Below are positions 256 through 10,364 of a stretch of 64,000 nucleotides of DNA, piece by piece (the stretch's first letter is position 1; each line of letters starts with the position of its first letter). Location of the stretch: contig NZ_ATVH01000011.1 of NCBI RefSeq assembly GCF_000420625.1, positions 310,001 through 374,000 on the forward strand, written 5' to 3'. The DNA is from Fodinicurvata sediminis DSM 21159 (GTDB taxonomy: Bacteria; Pseudomonadota; Alphaproteobacteria; Kiloniellales; DSM-21159). Both the position numbers and the translations under genes were made by a program. The notes under the pieces were generated by a model. That model saw only the letters and a list, made by a program, of their open reading frames with translations, searched no databases and was not told the origin of the DNA.

Positions 256-1125
256 ATGACCCAGCACTCAAGGACTGCACGCCGGCTTTTAACAGGTCTC
301 GCCTTTGTCGGCCTGTTGGCAGCTACGGCCTGTGCCCCCCACACGACAGCTGAAAACATCAAGGACGCGCCCAAGGGGCCCGAACCTTTCTTCAGCTTCC
401 CAGTCACCTCGAACGACACGCCCTATTCACAGTGTCTTGCCTCGTTCAAGAAATACCCGGGCAATAACCTGCCCGCCTTCACGGTCGGCGAGGTTGCCGA
501 CAAGACGGGGCAGATCGACCGCACCAGCAACTCCGCGGTGATCTCCCAGGGCGTGTCCGAGATGGTCATGAGCGCGCTCTGGAAGACGGGCAAGGCCAAG
601 CTGGTGGAGCGCTTCGACCTGCGCATCCCCTTGGCCGAGATGAAGATGATCGAACAGGGCCTGACCACCCGGCCCCAGAACGGCATGGCCAGTTCCATCC
701 GCGCCAGCGACTTCGTCGTGCTCGGCGCGTTGACGGAACTCAACTACAACATCGTGAGCCAGGGCGCTGGCCTCTGGGTCGGCGGCATCGGCGCGGGCGC
801 CCGCACGGTGGTCATCAACGTCGGTCTGGACCTGCGCGTGGTCAATTCACGCAACTTCGACGTCGGTTACGTCAGCTCTCTGCAGAAGCAGATCTACGGC
901 TACGAAGTCGAAGCCAATGTCTTCCGATTCTTCGGATCCCAACTCGTCGAGTTCGACGCGGGTCGTATCCAGAACGAACCGCTTCAGCTCGGCGTGCGCT
1001 CCGTCGTTGAAATGGCGATCTACCAGATCATGACGGAGTACTTCGGGCTTCCCGCCAGCAAGGAATGCGGCGAAATCCAGGAAGCCCATAACCTTGACGC
1101 AAGTGACTCTAAGAAGGAGAGCTAA
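256..1125 (+). CDS. CsgG/HfaB-family outer-membrane secretion lipoprotein
   Basis: The predicted 289-aa lipoprotein has a type II signal peptide ending in a lipobox (ATAC), so Cys26 would be acylated. The remainder resembles the CsgG/HfaB family, whose members form nonameric outer-membrane pores that export curli subunits or anchor Caulobacter holdfast. Family-like features are 'FTVGEVADKTGQ' near residue 75, the stretch 'SDFVVLGALTELNYN' near 150, and the Gly-rich 'GGIGAGARTVVINVGLDLRV', which fits the membrane beta-hairpin region. A GAGGGAAG ribosome site precedes the ATG. The next gene starts 2 nt after the stop, so the two are translationally coupled. A secreted partner in the same operon supports export of a fibre or anchor. 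HfaB is the closest named relative I can suggest; curli CsgG is the alternative. Confidence 0.8.
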   Translation: MTQHSRTARRLLTGLAFVGLLAATACAPHTTAENIKDAPKGPEPFFSFPVTSNDTPYSQCLASFKKYPGNNLPAFTVGEVADKTGQIDRTSNSAVISQGVSEMVMSALWKTGKAKLVERFDLRIPLAEMKMIEQGLTTRPQNGMASSIRASDFVVLGALTELNYNIVSQGAGLWVGGIGAGARTVVINVGLDLRVVNSRNFDVGYVSSLQKQIYGYEVEANVFRFFGSQLVEFDAGRIQNEPLQLGVRSVVEMAIYQIMTEYFGLPASKECGEIQEAHNLDASDSKKES

Positions 1126-1127
1126 AA

Positions 1128-2369
1128 ATGAAAAGGACCTTACGTTACGGGCTTCTCGCCGGCGCATCCGGCCTGGCCCTTGGCTTCGGACTGGCCACAG
1201 CGCCGGCCCAGGCTTTCGATGAAGTGAAGTGGACCTGGAATGCCAATGTCCATGAAAACGTCTGGAAGAATGTCTGGATTGACATTGATCTAGATCCGAA
1301 TGCCCTGACCATGCTGGAAAATATCCAGGTACACGTCGGCGACCTGAATGCTTATTCCAAAGTGAATGGTGTCTACAACAATCAGCATGGCGAAATGCAG
1401 GCTGCAGATGATGTCTCGTTCAAGTTTCAGAGTGAGGGATTTGACGATGATTCGGCTATCTTCAGCGACCCGAATATTGATCCCTATGGTGGTTCAACAG
1501 AGCAGCAACTCGGATTCGGTGCTTCTGTAGATACCTATGATACGACAACATCATTTGGAGATTATGATGAGTCATTCGATGATAACATCGGAGACGTTGA
1601 TTGGGGGTATCACAACGTAACAGGTATTCAGGGAGTTGACCCCAACGACCCAACTTCAGCCGGACAGTACATCGATATAATCGGCGGCACGACCACCGAA
1701 GGAAGTTGCTCGGGTGAAGCTGGCCAGTCTGAGTCTGGTTGTGTGGTCTTCGAAGTCACCATCGATGCCGATTCCATCGTATGGGTGCCTGTCGAAGCAT
1801 TGAATGCCGTAACACAGCTGCCAGAAGTTGTCAGTGCAGCCACGGCTGTTGCCAACAACTCAAATCTTACTAGCAACGCCACCACACAAGTCCACGAAGC
1901 CCAGTTCGCCTTCGGGGGTTTCAATGGACAAGACATCAATTCGGATAACATGGACGAGTTGATCGCAGCCGCCGTCGCTATTGATGCGGTGGTTCCCACC
2001 GGCAACCGTCACCACGATGCCTTGGCGTCTGCAGCCATTCTTGCTCAGCTTGGGTTGATCTCGAAGGGCAATATCAACGCCGTTTCGGATGTGGACAACA
2101 TCTGGAATGCTTCCGTGGACAGTTCCGCGACCGCTGTCACCAACAACAAGAACATCACGGTTGAAGCGGACACAACGGGTGAACTGGCTCTGATCGCCGA
2201 CGTGACCCAGTTTGGGTACATGGATGTGTATTCTGAGTCCAACGTTCAGAATGTTTCGGTTAACAACTACTCGAACCTGGGCAATCTGGACCGCCCGCTC
2301 GTGAATTCCGTGGCTACTTCGGTTGGAAACAACCTGAACGTGTCCATGGGCAATACTCCTACGGAATAA
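1128..2369 (+). CDS. Exported Asn-rich protein with ATAV..NN repeats, candidate CsgG substrate
   Basis: This 413-aa protein has a clear signal peptide ending in APAQA near residue 29 and no membrane anchor. It is acidic and rich in Asn, Asp, Ser and Val. Three degenerate repeats of the form S-A-T-A-V-x-N-N-x-N-(I/L) start near residues 235 (SAATAVANNSNL), 332 (SATAVTNNKNI) and 394 (SVATSVGNNLNV). Such ATA(V/I)-N-N motifs are typical of alphaproteobacterial HfaD-like and curlin-like secreted proteins. Two Cys lie near 194 and 205. Base composition is visibly more A/T-rich than in the gene before it. Tight coupling to the CsgG-type pore suggests that it is the exported fibre, anchor or assembly factor; this is inference. 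Confidence 0.6.
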   Translation: MKRTLRYGLLAGASGLALGFGLATAPAQAFDEVKWTWNANVHENVWKNVWIDIDLDPNALTMLENIQVHVGDLNAYSKVNGVYNNQHGEMQAADDVSFKFQSEGFDDDSAIFSDPNIDPYGGSTEQQLGFGASVDTYDTTTSFGDYDESFDDNIGDVDWGYHNVTGIQGVDPNDPTSAGQYIDIIGGTTTEGSCSGEAGQSESGCVVFEVTIDADSIVWVPVEALNAVTQLPEVVSAATAVANNSNLTSNATTQVHEAQFAFGGFNGQDINSDNMDELIAAAVAIDAVVPTGNRHHDALASAAILAQLGLISKGNINAVSDVDNIWNASVDSSATAVTNNKNITVEADTTGELALIADVTQFGYMDVYSESNVQNVSVNNYSNLGNLDRPLVNSVATSVGNNLNVSMGNTPTE

Positions 2370-2383
2370 TTTTACCAAGCACT

Positions 2384-2417
2384 GGCGGAACGAAGAAATT
2401 CGTTCCGCCTATTTTTT
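2384..2417 (+). terminator. Strong intrinsic terminator inside the secretion operon
   Basis: A perfect 11-bp stem (GGCGGAACGAA / TTCGTTCCGCC) with a GAAA tetraloop is followed by TATTTTTT. It lies 14 nt after the stop of the repeat protein and only 28 nt before the next ATG, so it probably reduces or controls read-through into the third gene. Confidence 0.85.
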
Positions 2418-2445
2418 CCACAACATAACCTCTCAGGAGGCCGCT

Positions 2446-2961
2446 ATGACGCGAACGTTCATTCTAACTGGCCTGATAGCATCGGGGTTCTGCATGGCAC
2501 TGGCGAGTGAAATTTTCTCTGACGTCTCGCCTGTGAAACTGATATCCGAAGCCAAAGCCCAGCAAATGGGTAACGATGGTTGGCGCTGGTCACGCAACAA
2601 GTCCATGGCTGCCCAATTCCAGGCAATGGACCGAAATGGCGGCAGCGTGAATGGAGGCGGGCTGGGCGCGCTGAACCAGTACACCACCAACTACACCTCC
2701 AATTCCACCTCCGTCGGTAACCTGAACGAAATCACCCAGATTCTATCGGAAGGGTCTGAGGGCTATGTGGGACAGAACACCGATCAACACAGCGAAGGCA
2801 ATCAGGGCTCCAGTGCCAACACCGATGTTAGCCAGAATAACTCCATCAACGACATTCAGGGAGATAACAACAACACATCCAGCAGCAGTGATACGTCGGC
2901 GAATGAAGAGCCCTCTGATGAAGAGGCCCCTGAGCAAACAGCTGAGAATCAAGAAGAATAA
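2446..2961 (+). CDS. Exported Asn/Ser-rich HfaA/curlin-like small protein with acidic tail
   Basis: This is a 171-aa protein with an N-terminal signal-like segment, apparently ending at AKA-QQ near residue 39. The mature part is low-complexity: 'TTNYTSNSTSVGNLNEITQI' (about 84-103) resembles the S-T-(S/A)-(V/I)-G-N-L-N core of HfaA and curlins, followed by an Asn/Gln/Ser-rich stretch and a strongly acidic tail (about 148-171) with no Cys. A perfect AGGAGG ribosome site sits 5 nt before the ATG, consistent with high translation, as expected for a structural subunit. A terminator separates it from the preceding gene. Assignment as a minor or major fibre subunit rests on motif and context only. 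Confidence 0.5.
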   Translation: MTRTFILTGLIASGFCMALASEIFSDVSPVKLISEAKAQQMGNDGWRWSRNKSMAAQFQAMDRNGGSVNGGGLGALNQYTTNYTSNSTSVGNLNEITQILSEGSEGYVGQNTDQHSEGNQGSSANTDVSQNNSINDIQGDNNNTSSSSDTSANEEPSDEEAPEQTAENQEE

Positions 2962-3005
2962 GGCATTGCAATATCATTAAGCTAATTGGGTTTAGATTAG
3001 AAGGG

Positions 3006-3021
3006 ATCCGGTAGACCGGAT
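3006..3021 (+). other. Small hairpin before the Sel1 gene start
   Basis: A perfect inverted repeat, ATCCGG-TAGA-CCGGAT, lies between a ribosome-site-like AAGGGA (3001-3006) and the ATG at 3030. It could mask the ribosome site or shorten the distance to the start codon. It has no U-run and is not a terminator. Confidence 0.4.
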
Positions 3022-3029
3022 TTATAGCG

Positions 3030-3980
3030 ATGTCTCATTTGAAATTGATCAATCAGTCTATACGTTCAGTTCTGCTGTGCGGCGCTTTGTTAACAGGCAG
3101 TTTCGTCTGGTTTTCACCGGAAACAGTTCAAGGTCAGCAAGTGATAACTGAAAACCTGGACCAGCTTCGTGCAGAGGCCGCCAAGGGCAACCCGGAAGCG
3201 GACTTCCAGCTTGGTTTCCTGGCTTCCATGGGACGCCTCCCCGGGGAAAGTCCAGCCAAGGCCTATGAATATCTGCGCCGCTCTGCAGATACCGGGCACC
3301 AGGAAGCCAGCTTCCTGCTCGGCACTCTCTATCTGAGTGGCGCGCACGGACAGCAAGCTTCACCGGAAGCTGCGAAGAGATACCTGGAAAGAGTTGCTGC
3401 ACAGGGTCATTCAAGAGCTCAGGACAAGCTCGGTCAGTATTACCTGTCACATGCGAGCAATCCAGGTGAAGCTGCCCAATGGTTTCAAAAGGCCGCCAAC
3501 CAGGGCCTAGCCAGTGCCGAGAACAACCTCGGACTGCTATATGCCGAGGGCAAGGGCGTGAGCCAGGACCCGGTGAGAGCAGCGGAACTGATATCCCGCG
3601 CCGCGGACAAGGGAGAGGTTGGCGCCAAGCACAACCTGGCAACTCTCTATCAAACGGGACGAGGCGTGGCCAAAAATCCGGAGCGTGCAGCGCAGCTTTT
3701 TGAAGAGGCCGCAGCGCGCGGCTATCAAAGGTCTCAATACAGCTTGGGCGTGCTTCACCTACAAGGTGAGTTTGGACAACCCAACCCCGTTGAGGGGCTT
3801 AAATGGCTGATGCTGGCATCAGCCGGTCCGGATAACCCCGTGCGTGAACAGGCACGAACAAATCTGCTTCAGGTAGCTCAAACCAGCCCAAATACTCTGG
3901 TACATGATGCCGCTGAAGCAGCGCGCCAGTGGGCCATACGCTACGAAATGAATGCGCCTTACCAAGTAGGCCAGAACTAG
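3030..3980 (+). CDS. Sel1-repeat (tetratricopeptide-like) exported protein
   Basis: This 316-aa protein has a signal peptide (cleavage probably after VQG, near residue 35). About six Sel1-like repeats of roughly 36 residues run from about 40 to 280, with recurring patterns such as 'AEAAKGNPEADFQLGFL', 'SADTGHQEASFLLGTLY' and 'AANQGLASAENNLGLLYAEG'. Sel1 repeats form alpha-solenoids that scaffold protein complexes, often in the envelope. It follows the two fibre-like genes on the same strand and could be a periplasmic assembly or quality-control factor of that system, although Sel1 proteins are common and may be unrelated. The start is uncertain because the ribosome site is far upstream, beyond a small hairpin. 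Confidence 0.8.
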   Translation: MSHLKLINQSIRSVLLCGALLTGSFVWFSPETVQGQQVITENLDQLRAEAAKGNPEADFQLGFLASMGRLPGESPAKAYEYLRRSADTGHQEASFLLGTLYLSGAHGQQASPEAAKRYLERVAAQGHSRAQDKLGQYYLSHASNPGEAAQWFQKAANQGLASAENNLGLLYAEGKGVSQDPVRAAELISRAADKGEVGAKHNLATLYQTGRGVAKNPERAAQLFEEAAARGYQRSQYSLGVLHLQGEFGQPNPVEGLKWLMLASAGPDNPVREQARTNLLQVAQTSPNTLVHDAAEAARQWAIRYEMNAPYQVGQN

Positions 3981-4009
3981 AAACCTATGTGAAGCGGGAG
4001 GAAGGTCTA

Positions 4010-4474
4010 ATGAAATATATGCGAATTCTCCTCCCGCTCCTTCTTGTTCTCGCCCTGCCCGCCTGTGGCGGACCGGCGGTCATGCTGGCCTCGGCTGCCC
4101 TGGGTGCCCTGGGCGGGGTCGGGGTTGGCGGTTCTTCGGGCACGGAGCCCACCGGAAACTCCTACAGCTACCGCAGTCCGAACATGGCCTCCGACGCCCA
4201 GAACGGGCACCGCGTCGATGAATCCATCAGCCAGGCGCTACAGATCTCCGACCAGGATGTGACTTCTGTCTGCAAGCAACGCCTGCCGGAGGCGTCGAAC
4301 CTGCCCCTGGCTGCAGGCAAATGCGAGGTGCGCATGACCTGCCTGCCCGGCGCCAAGATGCCAATGCGCATGCGTGTCTGCATGCCTCCGGACACCTCTG
4401 CCGCAGATGAAGTCGCCGCTGATTCAGAAGCGGTCTCCCGTCCTCCGTCCCTCGCCCCGGAGCAAGCGCTTTAA
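4010..4474 (+). CDS. Small lipoprotein with a four-Cys C-terminal domain, unknown function
   Basis: The predicted lipoprotein has 154 aa. The hydrophobic N-terminus ends in an LPAC lipobox, so Cys19 is the likely lipidation site. It is followed by an Ala/Gly-rich segment and a C-terminal region with four further Cys ('SVCKQRLP', 'GKCEVRMTCLPG', 'RVCMPP') that could form two disulfides. An earlier in-frame start overlaps the Sel1 gene, but GGGAGGAAGG right before the ATG at 4010 and the signal sequence decide for this start. It is the last gene on this strand before the decarboxylase leader and may end the secretion operon. I do not recognise the family. Confidence 0.7.
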   Translation: MKYMRILLPLLLVLALPACGGPAVMLASAALGALGGVGVGGSSGTEPTGNSYSYRSPNMASDAQNGHRVDESISQALQISDQDVTSVCKQRLPEASNLPLAAGKCEVRMTCLPGAKMPMRMRVCMPPDTSAADEVAADSEAVSRPPSLAPEQAL

Positions 4475-6166: not shown

Positions 6167-6976
6167 TCAGTAACTGCCGTTGCGTTCACGCAGGAACAGC
6201 CCGGCCACCTGCCCGATTTCGCGCCCCAGGGTCCAGGCAATTCTTCGGCGCGCTGCCGGGTCTGCCAGAAGCTGTTCATCCTGCGGGTTGGTGAGGAATC
6301 CGGTTTCCAACAGGACTGATGGAACTTCTCCCGAGCGCAGGACCGCAAAGTTCGCCGAACGACGCGGATTCTCCAGCAGGTGCAGGTCTTCTGACGCCCC
6401 CTCCACGATCAGACGCTGGGCACGGCGGGAATCCTCCCGGGCGATACGCCGGGCCAGATCCATCAAAATCGCCGCCGTGCGGGAATCCGTATTGCGCAGA
6501 TCGATACCATAGATCTCGTCCACGGCGTTCTCGCGCTCAGCCAGGGACTCGGCGAAATCATCCGAGGCATTCTCGGCCAAAGTATAGGCGGACAGGCCGC
6601 GTGCATTGCGATTTGGGGCGGCGTCGGCATGTATGGAGATGAACAGGTCGGCCTGAAGCTCGTGCCCGATCTGAACGCGGTCCGGCAATGCCAGGGACTC
6701 GTCGCTTTCGCGGGTAAGCGCCACATGATGCGGCAAACGGCCATTCAGATAGCTGCGCAGCTCCTGGCAGATGGCCAGGGTAACATTCTTTTCAAGGGTT
6801 CCCGCCCCGCCAATCGCCCCGGGATCGCGCCCGCCATGACCGGGGTCGAGCACGATCACCGCCCCCTCCGGTTTGGCAGGGACAAGGGGCGGCACCTCTG
6901 CCTGCGCCAGTCGCGCGGACAGGCTCCCCAGAAGTGTGGAAGCCAGCAGGCCGGTGAAAAAGGTTCGTCTGTACAC
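6167..6976 (-). CDS. N-acetylmuramoyl-L-alanine amidase (Amidase_3, AmiC-like)
   Basis: A periplasmic zinc amidase that cleaves the bond between MurNAc and L-Ala in peptidoglycan. The 269-aa protein begins with 'MYRRTFFTGLLAS' and ends its signal at AQA-EV; the Arg pair makes Tat export possible, as known for AmiA and AmiC. The catalytic motifs are visible: 'IVLDPGHGGRDPGAIG' with the first Zn His, the Glu in 'GTLEKNV', 'FISIHADAAPN' with the second His, and 'VLLETGFLTNPQDE' with the catalytic Glu. It lacks the N-terminal AMIN domain of E. coli AmiC. It lies 66 nt after livF on the same strand and converges on the decarboxylase gene. Confidence 0.9.
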   Translation of the reverse strand: MYRRTFFTGLLASTLLGSLSARLAQAEVPPLVPAKPEGAVIVLDPGHGGRDPGAIGGAGTLEKNVTLAICQELRSYLNGRLPHHVALTRESDESLALPDRVQIGHELQADLFISIHADAAPNRNARGLSAYTLAENASDDFAESLAERENAVDEIYGIDLRNTDSRTAAILMDLARRIAREDSRRAQRLIVEGASEDLHLLENPRRSANFAVLRSGEVPSVLLETGFLTNPQDEQLLADPAARRRIAWTLGREIGQVAGLFLRERNGSY

Positions 6977-7042
6977 CGCGAAAACCGACTCCGTTACAAG
7001 ATCATTCTCACGAGGGTTAACACGAAGGGGTCTGCCGTCAAG

Positions 7043-7711
7043 TCAAACAGCCGGCTTCCCGGCTGCAAGCACCTGTCCGCGATCCATGCGATAGCTCCGG
7101 TCGATCAGTCCCTCGGCAAAGGCGGGGTTCTGTTCGGACAGTAGTACCGTCAAGCCATCCTGCTTCAGCGACAGGATCGCCTGTCTCATCTGTTGGACGA
7201 CGACAGGGGCCAGCCCTTCCGAGGGCTCGTCGAGCAGCAGCAGACGCGGATTTCCCATCAAGGTGCGCGCGATGGTCAGCATCTGCTGTTCGCCCCCCGA
7301 CATCTCCCCGGCCCGCCGTTCATAGAGCGGCTCCAGCTTGGGAAACAGTTCGAACAGTCCGTCCAGGGTCCACGCTTTCCTGTCCCCTGGTGCCGCGCGC
7401 TGGGCGACGGACAGGTTTTCGCGAACCGTCAGCCCCTGGAAGACACGCCGATCCTCCGGCACATACCCAATCCCCTGGCGGGCGACCTCGTACTCGGCCA
7501 GCCCTGATATGTCCCGGCCTTCGAAATGCAGGCGCTCTGCGGTGCGCGTTACCAGGCCCATGACAGACTTCAAGGTGGTGCTCTTGCCGCTGCCATTGGG
7601 GCCAAGCAGGGCGACAACCTCACCCTCCCTCACCTCGAGCGCGACGTCGAAAAGCACCTGGGCGCGCCCATACCAGGCTTTCAGCCCCTGTATCTCGAGC
7701 AGCCCGGTCAT
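7043..7711 (-). CDS. livF: Branched-chain amino acid-type ABC transporter ATPase LivF
   Basis: One of two ATPases powering a HAAT-family importer at the inner membrane. The 222-aa protein carries Walker A 'GPNGSGKST' near residue 37, the ABC signature 'MSGGEQQML' and Walker B 'LLLLDEPSEGLAP'. 'LTVLLSEQN' replaces the usual switch His with Gln, as in many LivF proteins. The start codon overlaps the stop of livG by ATGA. The true substrate is unknown: the binding protein in this operon is not close enough to LivJ to call leucine, so other amino acids, amides or urea-like solutes remain possible. Confidence 0.9.
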   Translation of the reverse strand: MTGLLEIQGLKAWYGRAQVLFDVALEVREGEVVALLGPNGSGKSTTLKSVMGLVTRTAERLHFEGRDISGLAEYEVARQGIGYVPEDRRVFQGLTVRENLSVAQRAAPGDRKAWTLDGLFELFPKLEPLYERRAGEMSGGEQQMLTIARTLMGNPRLLLLDEPSEGLAPVVVQQMRQAILSLKQDGLTVLLSEQNPAFAEGLIDRSYRMDRGQVLAAGKPAV

Positions 7712-8487
7712 GATTCCTCCCCTTCTGCCGTGCGCGAAGGCTCCGTGAGGTTGCCGAGATAGACCCGCTGAACCGCAGGGTTGGCCTGGACCTGGGCAGC
7801 AGTACCGTCCGCCAGGACTTCCCCCTGGTCCAGAACCAGAATGCGGTCGGCATAGGTAAAGACAACAGACATGTCGTGCTCCGTGAAGAGGACCGACAGG
7901 CCCCTGTCCCGTACCAACCGCACGACCTGCTCCATCAGGCCTTCGCGCTCCTCGGGCGCCATGCCGGCCGTCGGCTCGTCCATCAGCAGAAGGACCGGAT
8001 CATGGGCCAGCGCCACGGCCAGCTCCAGGCGCTTGATATTGCCATAGGCCAGTGTACCGCAGGTGCGTGCGGCAACTTCCTCGAGGCCAAGCTGCGCCAG
8101 CAGGGACAGAGCCTGGTCCCGATAGAGCCGGTCCGCACGCGGCCAAAGCTGGCGCAGGCGCTTGTTGTGAGACATGAGCGCCATCTGCACGTTCTCCACG
8201 ACACGCATGGAGGCAAAGGGCGCTGCAATCTGGAAGGTGCGGCCAATGCCCAGGCGCCAGACCATGCGGGGCGGCAATCCGGTAATCTCCCGACCCTGGA
8301 AGAACACCTGGCCCGAATCCGCCCGCAGTTGGCCATTGAGCAGGTTGAAACAGGTCGTCTTACCGGCTCCGTTCGGGCCAATCAGGGCGCGAAGTTCCCC
8401 TTGCGCCACATTAAAGGACACAGACTGCACGGCATGAACGCCGCCGTAGGCCTTGTTCAGCCCATTGACCTCCAGAACGCCGCTCAT
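7708..8487 (-). CDS. livG: Branched-chain amino acid-type ABC transporter ATPase LivG
   Basis: The second ATPase of the importer, 259 aa. Walker A is 'GPNGAGKTT', the signature region is 'LAYGNIKRLELAVAL' (LivG-type, lacking canonical LSGGQ), Walker B is 'LLLMDEPTAGMAP' and the switch His lies in 'LFTEHDMSVV'. The start at 8487 is preferred over an upstream ATG at 8559 because the homologous region begins at 'MSGVLEVNGL' and because ATGA overlaps the stop of the permease gene, a coupling repeated at the livG-livF junction. Confidence 0.9.
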   Translation of the reverse strand: MSGVLEVNGLNKAYGGVHAVQSVSFNVAQGELRALIGPNGAGKTTCFNLLNGQLRADSGQVFFQGREITGLPPRMVWRLGIGRTFQIAAPFASMRVVENVQMALMSHNKRLRQLWPRADRLYRDQALSLLAQLGLEEVAARTCGTLAYGNIKRLELAVALAHDPVLLLMDEPTAGMAPEEREGLMEQVVRLVRDRGLSVLFTEHDMSVVFTYADRILVLDQGEVLADGTAAQVQANPAVQRVYLGNLTEPSRTAEGEES

Positions 8488-10364
8488 GTCCGCCGTCCCG
8501 GCAACCAGGCCGCCAACTCTCGCCCTGCTCCTGCCAGTCCACGAGGGAAAAGGATGCACAACACCACGATCAGAAGCCCCAGCAACAGGCGCCAGTAATC
8601 GGTCAGGCTGACCAGCTCAGCCTTCAGTCCGGTGAAGACGGCAGCCCCCAGGATCGGTCCCGTCAGGGACTGCACGCCGCCGAGCAGGACCATGGCCAGG
8701 GCATCGACAGATTGCGGTATGGCCATGGAATCGGGCGAGATGCTGCCCTTCAGGAAAACGAACAGGCCGCCCGCCACACCGGCGAAGGTACCGGCGAGCG
8801 TAAAGGCCAACCAGCGTTGCAGCCGGACATCGATGCCGATGGCTTCGGCCCGCAGGGGCGAATCGCGGCCGGCCCTGAGAGCGTAACCGAAAGGCGCATA
8901 GGCAAAACGCCGCAAGAGGAACAGGCAGGCCAGGCAGACCGCCAGGACCAGGTAGTAGAAAGTGGCGCTGTCAGAAGCCCATTCCGGCGGCCAGATGCCC
9001 AGCAGGCCGTTATCACCTCCGGTCAGCCCCTCCCACTGGAAGGCTATGGACCAGGCGATCTGGGCGAATGCCAGGGTCAACATGGCCAGGTAAACCCCCG
9101 AGAGACGCACAGCGAACCATCCGAAGATGAAGGCGCCAATGGCGGCCAGGAAGGGTGCGGCCAACAAGGCAAGCTCCATGGGCAGAGCAAGCGATTTGAA
9201 GGCCAGGGCAGCACCATAGGCGCCCAGCCCGAAGTAGGCGGCATGGCCGAAGGAGATGACCCCGCCCAAGCCCATGAGGAACTGCAGGGAAGCTGCGAAA
9301 AGTGCGAAGACAGCCATCTCGGTAAAGATATAGAGGCTGTAGTTTCCCGCTCCCAGAACGGGCAGCAGGCACAAGCCCGCTATGCCGAGTGCCATGCCAC
9401 CCTTCATCAAGTTGCCCGGTCTGCGCAGGACCGTTGCTTCGACGGGCAAGCCACCCTTGTGCAGGTTCTCCGCACGACCCAGCAATCCCCAAGGGCGCAG
9501 CACCAGGACAACCGCCATGACGATGAAGATCGACACGAGCTCGAGCTGCCACATGGTGATTCCCAGAACGGACACTTCAGCGTTTGCCACGGCCAGTGTC
9601 CGGATCAGCGAAACCAGGACAGCCGCCAGATAGGCGCCAAGTATCGACCCCATGCCGCCGACAACCACGACCACGAAAACCGAGGCGATGATCTGCATGT
9701 CCATGGACAGGTTGGCACTGCCCTTGGGCAGCTCCAGGGCACCGCCCAGGCCGGCAAGCAGCGAGCCCAGGGCAAAGACCGCCGTCATTATCCAGCGTTG
9801 ATTCACCCCCAGCGAGGCCAACATTTCCGGATCCTCTGTTGCCGCCCGTACCAGGGCGCCCCAGCGGGTGCGGTTGAACAGAAGCCAAAGGCCAAGCAGG
9901 ACAAGAGGCGCCAGAAGGATCAGGAACAGGTCATACACCGGGAATTGGCGTCCCAGCAGGACATGGGCGCCGTCCAGGCCCGGAGGCCGCACACCGAAAC
10001 GGTCCTGAGGGCCCCAGATAGCCAGGGTCACATCCTGTACGATCAGGACCACGCCAAAGGTCGCCAGCAACTGGAAGAGCTCAGGCGAGCGATAGAGCCG
10101 CCGCAGGACCGTGACCTCCAGAAGCCCGCCGATCAGGGCAACCGCCAGCACGGCGACAAGAACAGCCAGCCAGAACCCCCCTGCCTGACCGCCCCATAGG
10201 GAAATCAGGGTCACGGCGATATAGGCCCCCAGCATGTAAAGGCTGCCGTGCGCGAAGTTCACAACACGGGTGACTCCGAAAATGATCGTCAGGCCGCTGG
10301 CCACAAGAAAAAGCGAGGAGGCGCTGGCCAGACCGGTCAGCAACTGGATGATAAGACTGTCCAT
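8484..10364 (-). CDS. Fused LivH-LivM permease of a HAAT ABC transporter
   Basis: Both membrane subunits of the importer are in one 626-aa chain. Residues 1 to about 300 are LivH-like, with 'SGLTIIFGVTRVVNFAHG' near the N-terminus. Residues from about 330 to the end are LivM-like, with 'GGVISFGHAAYFGLGAYG'. Many hydrophobic helices are visible. In most bacteria these are separate genes of about 290 and 330-400 residues. No frame break or internal stop is seen, and the junction (about 295-325) is a short hydrophilic linker. It follows the binding-protein gene by 72 nt. A TTC-type long frame on the opposite strand is a shadow. Confidence 0.9.
   Translation of the reverse strand: MDSLIIQLLTGLASASSLFLVASGLTIIFGVTRVVNFAHGSLYMLGAYIAVTLISLWGGQAGGFWLAVLVAVLAVALIGGLLEVTVLRRLYRSPELFQLLATFGVVLIVQDVTLAIWGPQDRFGVRPPGLDGAHVLLGRQFPVYDLFLILLAPLVLLGLWLLFNRTRWGALVRAATEDPEMLASLGVNQRWIMTAVFALGSLLAGLGGALELPKGSANLSMDMQIIASVFVVVVVGGMGSILGAYLAAVLVSLIRTLAVANAEVSVLGITMWQLELVSIFIVMAVVLVLRPWGLLGRAENLHKGGLPVEATVLRRPGNLMKGGMALGIAGLCLLPVLGAGNYSLYIFTEMAVFALFAASLQFLMGLGGVISFGHAAYFGLGAYGAALAFKSLALPMELALLAAPFLAAIGAFIFGWFAVRLSGVYLAMLTLAFAQIAWSIAFQWEGLTGGDNGLLGIWPPEWASDSATFYYLVLAVCLACLFLLRRFAYAPFGYALRAGRDSPLRAEAIGIDVRLQRWLAFTLAGTFAGVAGGLFVFLKGSISPDSMAIPQSVDALAMVLLGGVQSLTGPILGAAVFTGLKAELVSLTDYWRLLLGLLIVVLCILFPRGLAGAGRELAAWLPGRRT

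Follow-up and report, generated by a model that had tools for sequence, protein, structure and literature searches.

In Caulobacter, a polysaccharide adhesin, the holdfast, is tethered to the outer membrane by secreted proteins; the system comprises the CsgG-family lipoprotein pore HfaB and two exported proteins, HfaA and HfaD, whose arrival at the cell surface requires HfaB (PMC6707917). A CsgG-domain pore lipoprotein is also part of the curli system (csgBAC-csgDEFG, type VIII secretion), together with LuxR-type regulation encoded divergently and small exported repeat proteins. The functional amyloid Fap of Pseudomonas uses the FapF barrel and not a CsgG pore. Here we analyse an operon of five + strand genes in a stretch of 64,000 nucleotides of Fodinicurvata sediminis DSM 21159 (contig NZ_ATVH01000011.1, positions 310,001 to 374,000), called the window below, which begins 255 bases upstream of the first gene. 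An earlier note, made from the letters of this DNA alone, had proposed a curli-like or holdfast-anchor-like secretion operon, and the latter option proved to be the better one. Judged by sequence comparison, the operon is an hfaB-hfaD-hfaA-type set (B-D-A) and not the hfaA-hfaB-hfaD set of true hfa loci, a difference in order from Caulobacter that the note had already recognized. We consider it probable (roughly 0.72) that the operon encodes an export pathway akin to type VIII (curli/Hfa) secretion for two repeat proteins, from which a surface structure would be built that is anchored in the outer membrane, adhesive and possibly amyloid. A search of the open-access literature gave no account of this operon; subscription papers may hold one.

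The first gene (256..1125, + strand, 289 aa) encodes an outer-membrane lipoprotein of the CsgG/HfaB family, as had been proposed. It is matched by the Pfam CsgG model (1.9e-30) and by the solved CsgG structure in the PDB (3.4e-14), and the nearest NCBIfam model is HfaB (3.5e-49). With 167 bits the pore stays below the equivalog cut-off of 300 of this model, whereas the true HfaB proteins of Caulobacterales and relatives score 310-428 bits. The pore of Fodinicurvata fenggangensis is 96% identical to that of the window. In a pore tree, a strongly supported branch splits the pores of B-D-A loci from the HfaB pores, and CsgG lies far from the B-D-A pores. Taking two CsgG sequences as the outgroup places HfaB within the B-D-A set (forks 98/96 and 99/98), a position that depends on a very long CsgG branch and hence on an unsafe root. 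A second, weak CsgG-domain protein is encoded in the same genome (L002, G000 C15:135749-136024, 2.2e-6).

The conservation of the neighbouring genes was followed in loci collected by a genome scan with a pore-only alignment, which gave 77 loci; three of these stop within the pore or directly behind it, and the others make up 75 together with the window. The loci belong to Alphaproteobacteria and Halomonadaceae, plus two Micavibrio records, and a lipobox was found in 71 of the 75 pore homologues. Seed hidden Markov models (HMMs) alone placed gene 2 after the pore in 68/75 loci and gene 3 in 65/75. When stop-to-stop frames were then inspected in the remaining loci, both counts rose to 74/75, always on the same strand; the exceptions are one locus in which no gene 2 frame is present (L147) and one in which the contig ends (L133). 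Every complete locus has the order B-D-A, and the gap between pore and gene 2, 2 bp in the window, lies between -20 and +45 bp in 67/68 loci (median -4 bp). Of 58 related genomes, 11 have strong pore matches, and both gene 2 and gene 3 occur in exactly these 11. The earlier note had named pores occurring in many genomes without the two downstream exported genes as evidence that would speak against its proposal; what we found is the opposite, and the conserved unit is the three genes encoding the pore, gene 2 and gene 3.

Gene 2 (1128..2369, + strand, 413 aa) encodes an exported HfaD-like repeat protein, the putative secreted substrate or scaffold, and gene 3 (2446..2961, + strand, 171 aa) an exported HfaA-like protein, the putative fibre or multimer subunit. 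The motifs that had drawn attention to these two Asn/Ser-rich proteins are present. Gene 2 carries three copies of (S)AT(A/S)VxNN on the + strand, namely AATAVANN (about 1836..1859), SATAVTNN (about 2124..2147) and SVATSVGNN (about 2307..2333), and this motif occurs on average 2.5 times per protein in 68 gene 2 homologues versus 0.26 times after shuffling. Gene 3, with 11.7% N and 14% S, has STSVGNLN at about 2704, at the start of a repeat unit (STSVGNLNEI...Q...GNQ, 2704..2817, + strand) that aligns with the HfaA unit TAIGNxLNV...STQxNNGxQ. Neither of these two genes, nor gene 5, encodes a protein matching a Pfam or NCBIfam family above cut-off.

For comparison, real hfa loci were gathered via the HfaB model, and hhalign was run on mature proteins with deep alignments. 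Gene 3 and HfaA aligned at 86.5%, with reversed and column-shuffled controls at no more than 0.2%. Among 364 open reading frames (ORFs) of real hfa loci, the first 12 matches of the gene 3 profile were all true HfaA proteins (8.6e-13 to 0.0024), the best match of the reversed profile being 0.075, and in a search of 385 genomes of the class the profile matched an hfaA beside a true hfaB (G193, 1.4e-11). These profile comparisons argue strongly for a link between gene 3 and HfaA. The comparison of gene 2 with HfaD reached 58.5% (controls no more than 0.1%), and HfaA with HfaD, a known functional pair, 60.6%. When 4754 ORFs were searched with the HfaD profile, all 13 matches at E<0.01 were gene 2 or gene 3 proteins, the values for gene 2 proteins being 5e-7 and weaker and the best of the reversed profile 0.19; the profile link between gene 2 and HfaD is thus of moderate strength and suggests a relationship. 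The four families have the unit (S/A)TA(I/V)GN-x(n)-Q-x-N-x-G-x-Q/V in common; HfaA and gene 3 contain a single copy, HfaD and gene 2 several. In gene 3 of the Thalassospira/Pelagibius type a cysteine pair (VCGG...CIIL) flanks the repeat unit; the Fodinicurvata type is without the pair.

Genes 2 and 3 are separated by a stem-loop (2384..2409, + strand; 11 bp stem, 4-nt loop, z -5.0), followed by TATTTTTT. In 63 loci, the gap between the two genes had a median dinucleotide z of -3.8, with z<-2 in 89%, compared with -0.5 and 20% in 126 other co-directional gaps of the same loci (p 1.5e-21, a value that overstates independence, since the loci are related); folding controls inside gene 2 were flat. 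The stem sequences are unrelated between loci. The window copy has a T-run, and since a T-rich tail is present in only 16/63 loci, most of the stem-loops are not simple terminators. Intercistronic hairpins lacking U-tracts give unequal mRNA stability within operons, with a precedent in papBA, where a hairpin stands between the regulator and the pilin gene (PMC5927463). The stem-loop probably serves to set the ratio of pore and gene 2 to gene 3.

Downstream of the core, the exported Sel1-repeat protein (3030..3980, + strand, 316 aa; Pfam Sel1 3.7e-32, six repeats) and the small Cys-rich lipoprotein (4010..4474, + strand, 154 aa) are encoded as the earlier note had described them. The best start of the latter is the ATG at 4010, preceded by GGAGGAAGG, which was preferred over the GTG at 3929. 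The expectation that all five genes make up one system held for the pore, gene 2 and gene 3 and did not extend to these two: a Sel1 gene follows directly in 12 loci by BLAST clustering or 17 by HMM, and homologues of the lipoprotein are near 13 or 18 loci, respectively. As these two genes accompany the core in no more than about 12-18 loci, all of the Rhodospirillales type, they are regarded as accessory.

Taken together, we propose that the gene 1 lipoprotein would oligomerise as an outer-membrane pore of the CsgG/HfaB type, and that the HfaD-like gene 2 and HfaA-like gene 3 products would be exported by Sec and then pass through this pore largely unfolded. At the cell surface they may assemble into an adhesive, possibly amyloid-type structure, with the gene 2 protein as the likely scaffold or nucleator and the gene 3 protein as the polymerising subunit. 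The relative mRNA levels of the two would be set by the stem-loop between them, and expression of the operon might be controlled by LuxR-type regulators encoded upstream. In the Rhodospirillales-type subset, the Sel1 protein and the Cys-rich lipoprotein might act as periplasmic or outer-membrane helpers.

Several observations weigh against this proposal. The gene 2-HfaD profile match is a moderate one, and its signal stems mostly from a short repeat motif, which could converge. Curlin repeats (PF07012) are absent from this genome, and the model does match in the related genome G018 and in the E. coli control. The structure model of gene 2 speaks in favour of the proposal, being confidently beta-rich in the repeat regions (mean predicted local distance difference test score, pLDDT, 74; blocks 90-98) and having the functional amyloid FapC as its best PDB match (Foldseek E 0.013, VIA Z 3.5), but this weak resemblance is below significance and only suggestive. 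The AlphaFold model of gene 3 was uninformative at pLDDT 55 and was not used. The gene 2 model also shows a long ordered beta-rich domain and not many short curlin repeats, which speaks for another reading: after export through the pore, the products of genes 2 and 3 might remain a complex in the outer membrane that forms no fibrils, or soluble proteins of a matrix, with no adhesive fibre. We regard this as unlikely, but as an explanation to be reckoned with. That the operon encodes a divergent true curli system, in which gene 3 would be CsgA-like, gene 2 CsgB-like and the Sel1 protein a replacement of CsgE, appears very improbable. The CsgG family pore, the LuxR/CsgD-type regulators and the exported Asn/Ser-rich proteins bearing repeats would fit such a system, but the pore is distant from CsgG in the tree, and the repeats align with HfaA/HfaD and not with the curlin-like proteins of G018. 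Moreover, CsgF (PF10614) is absent from this genome, as the earlier note had observed for the visible genes, and its model does find its target in a related genome as well as in E. coli. Because neither curlin repeats nor CsgF are present in the genome, we do not class the operon as curli. The related-order genome G018 has CsgG-CsgF curli-type loci (L036, L037), and the set in L037 is flanked by genes with curlin repeats; the order therefore contains both true curli and the system of the Hfa type.

HfaB, HfaD and HfaA are the closest characterised relatives of the three core proteins, which raises the question of whether the secreted proteins could tether a polysaccharide, as a true holdfast or polar-polysaccharide anchor. 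This is rather improbable in our opinion, and the holdfast-anchoring role itself finds no support here. In line with the earlier impression that no holdfast polysaccharide genes are visible, unbiased neighbour clustering revealed no conserved polysaccharide gene within +-8 kb of the 77 loci, unlinked hfs genes not having been searched for. The pore lies outside the HfaB clade, and gene 3 differs from the Caulobacter set by a conserved N-terminal motif of the PW-x-F type, as does the locus by its LuxR regulators and a divergently encoded exported protein, joined in some hosts by the Sel1 and lipoprotein genes. The operon is also present in Halomonadaceae, which are not known as holdfast formers. 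Since the pore score is below the equivalog cut-off and the gene order is a different one, the operon was not classed as a holdfast anchor, and we retain export of two surface-assembling repeat proteins as the preferred interpretation.

The genes upstream of the operon lie outside the window and are given in coordinates of the locus L024, which equal the window position plus 10000. Three regulators of the LuxR-type group are encoded there (6682-7326 and 7641-8354 on the + strand, 9034-9843 on the - strand); two have GerE/LuxR and receiver domains, and the third matches GerE alone, and weakly. Homologues occur in 63/78 loci, at about two per locus, and all ten sampled regulators matched GerE, nine of them above cut-off. 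Scores against the CsgD equivalog are 67-77 bits, below the cut-off of 250. Ten Halomonadaceae loci appear, by sequence inspection alone, to carry a gene resembling sigma-54-type activators in place of the LuxR type. A scan for sigma-70 promoters yielded no sites. The divergent exported protein (8362-8892, - strand, 176 aa) has no library match; it belongs to a family of 160-190 aa proteins that start with Q-x-N-N-x-P-F-S-F and have homologues in about 35 loci. Its identification as CsgF was rejected, no profile match being obtained. Its N-terminus is resembled by the aromatic PW-x-F-type motif found at the N-terminus of gene 3 in 61/65 cases, a likeness that is weak on mature sequences. A strong link between the two proteins was discarded, as it had been inflated by signal peptides (mature hhalign 2-28% over 13-15 columns).

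The distribution of the operon also shows some particular cases. In the genus g24 (G043-G057) it is present in 5/8 genomes, and this patchiness indicates loss or horizontal transfer. One genome (G072 C1) has five HfaB-like pores (L083, L084); in L083, several sets of pore, gene 2 and gene 3 follow one another in tandem. Six gene 3 copies were counted in this genome by the class search. In two further loci (L077 and L035, of G095 and G023) related CsgG/HfaB-like pores adjoin exported proteins of giant size (about 1100-1500 aa) and a small one whose N-terminus reads ENR(P/S)WQF; this arrangement is possibly a variant for large substrates.

Until now, nearly all knowledge of HfaA and HfaD came from bacteria that form a holdfast. 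Because many bacteria for which no holdfast is known share the three-gene core with its rearranged order, there may be a broader system of surface fibres, of which holdfast anchors are a single specialised branch. As a tentative extension, the B-D-A operon could be the older and more widespread protein-only machine for secretion of a surface fibre or adhesin, with its own regulators, a stoichiometry hairpin and a shared N-terminal export motif of the PW-x-F type, from which HfaABD of Caulobacterales might have arisen by gene reordering and recruitment to polysaccharide. The two substrate families have no Pfam or NCBIfam model and, we suggest, merit one. With a conserved relative that consists of protein only and is present in the culturable Thalassospira, Magnetospirillum, Azospirillum, Paracoccus and Halomonas, the chemistry of pore and substrate would become separable from that of the polysaccharide, and the dozens of diverse sequences provide material from which the export signal and the unit that polymerises could be identified.

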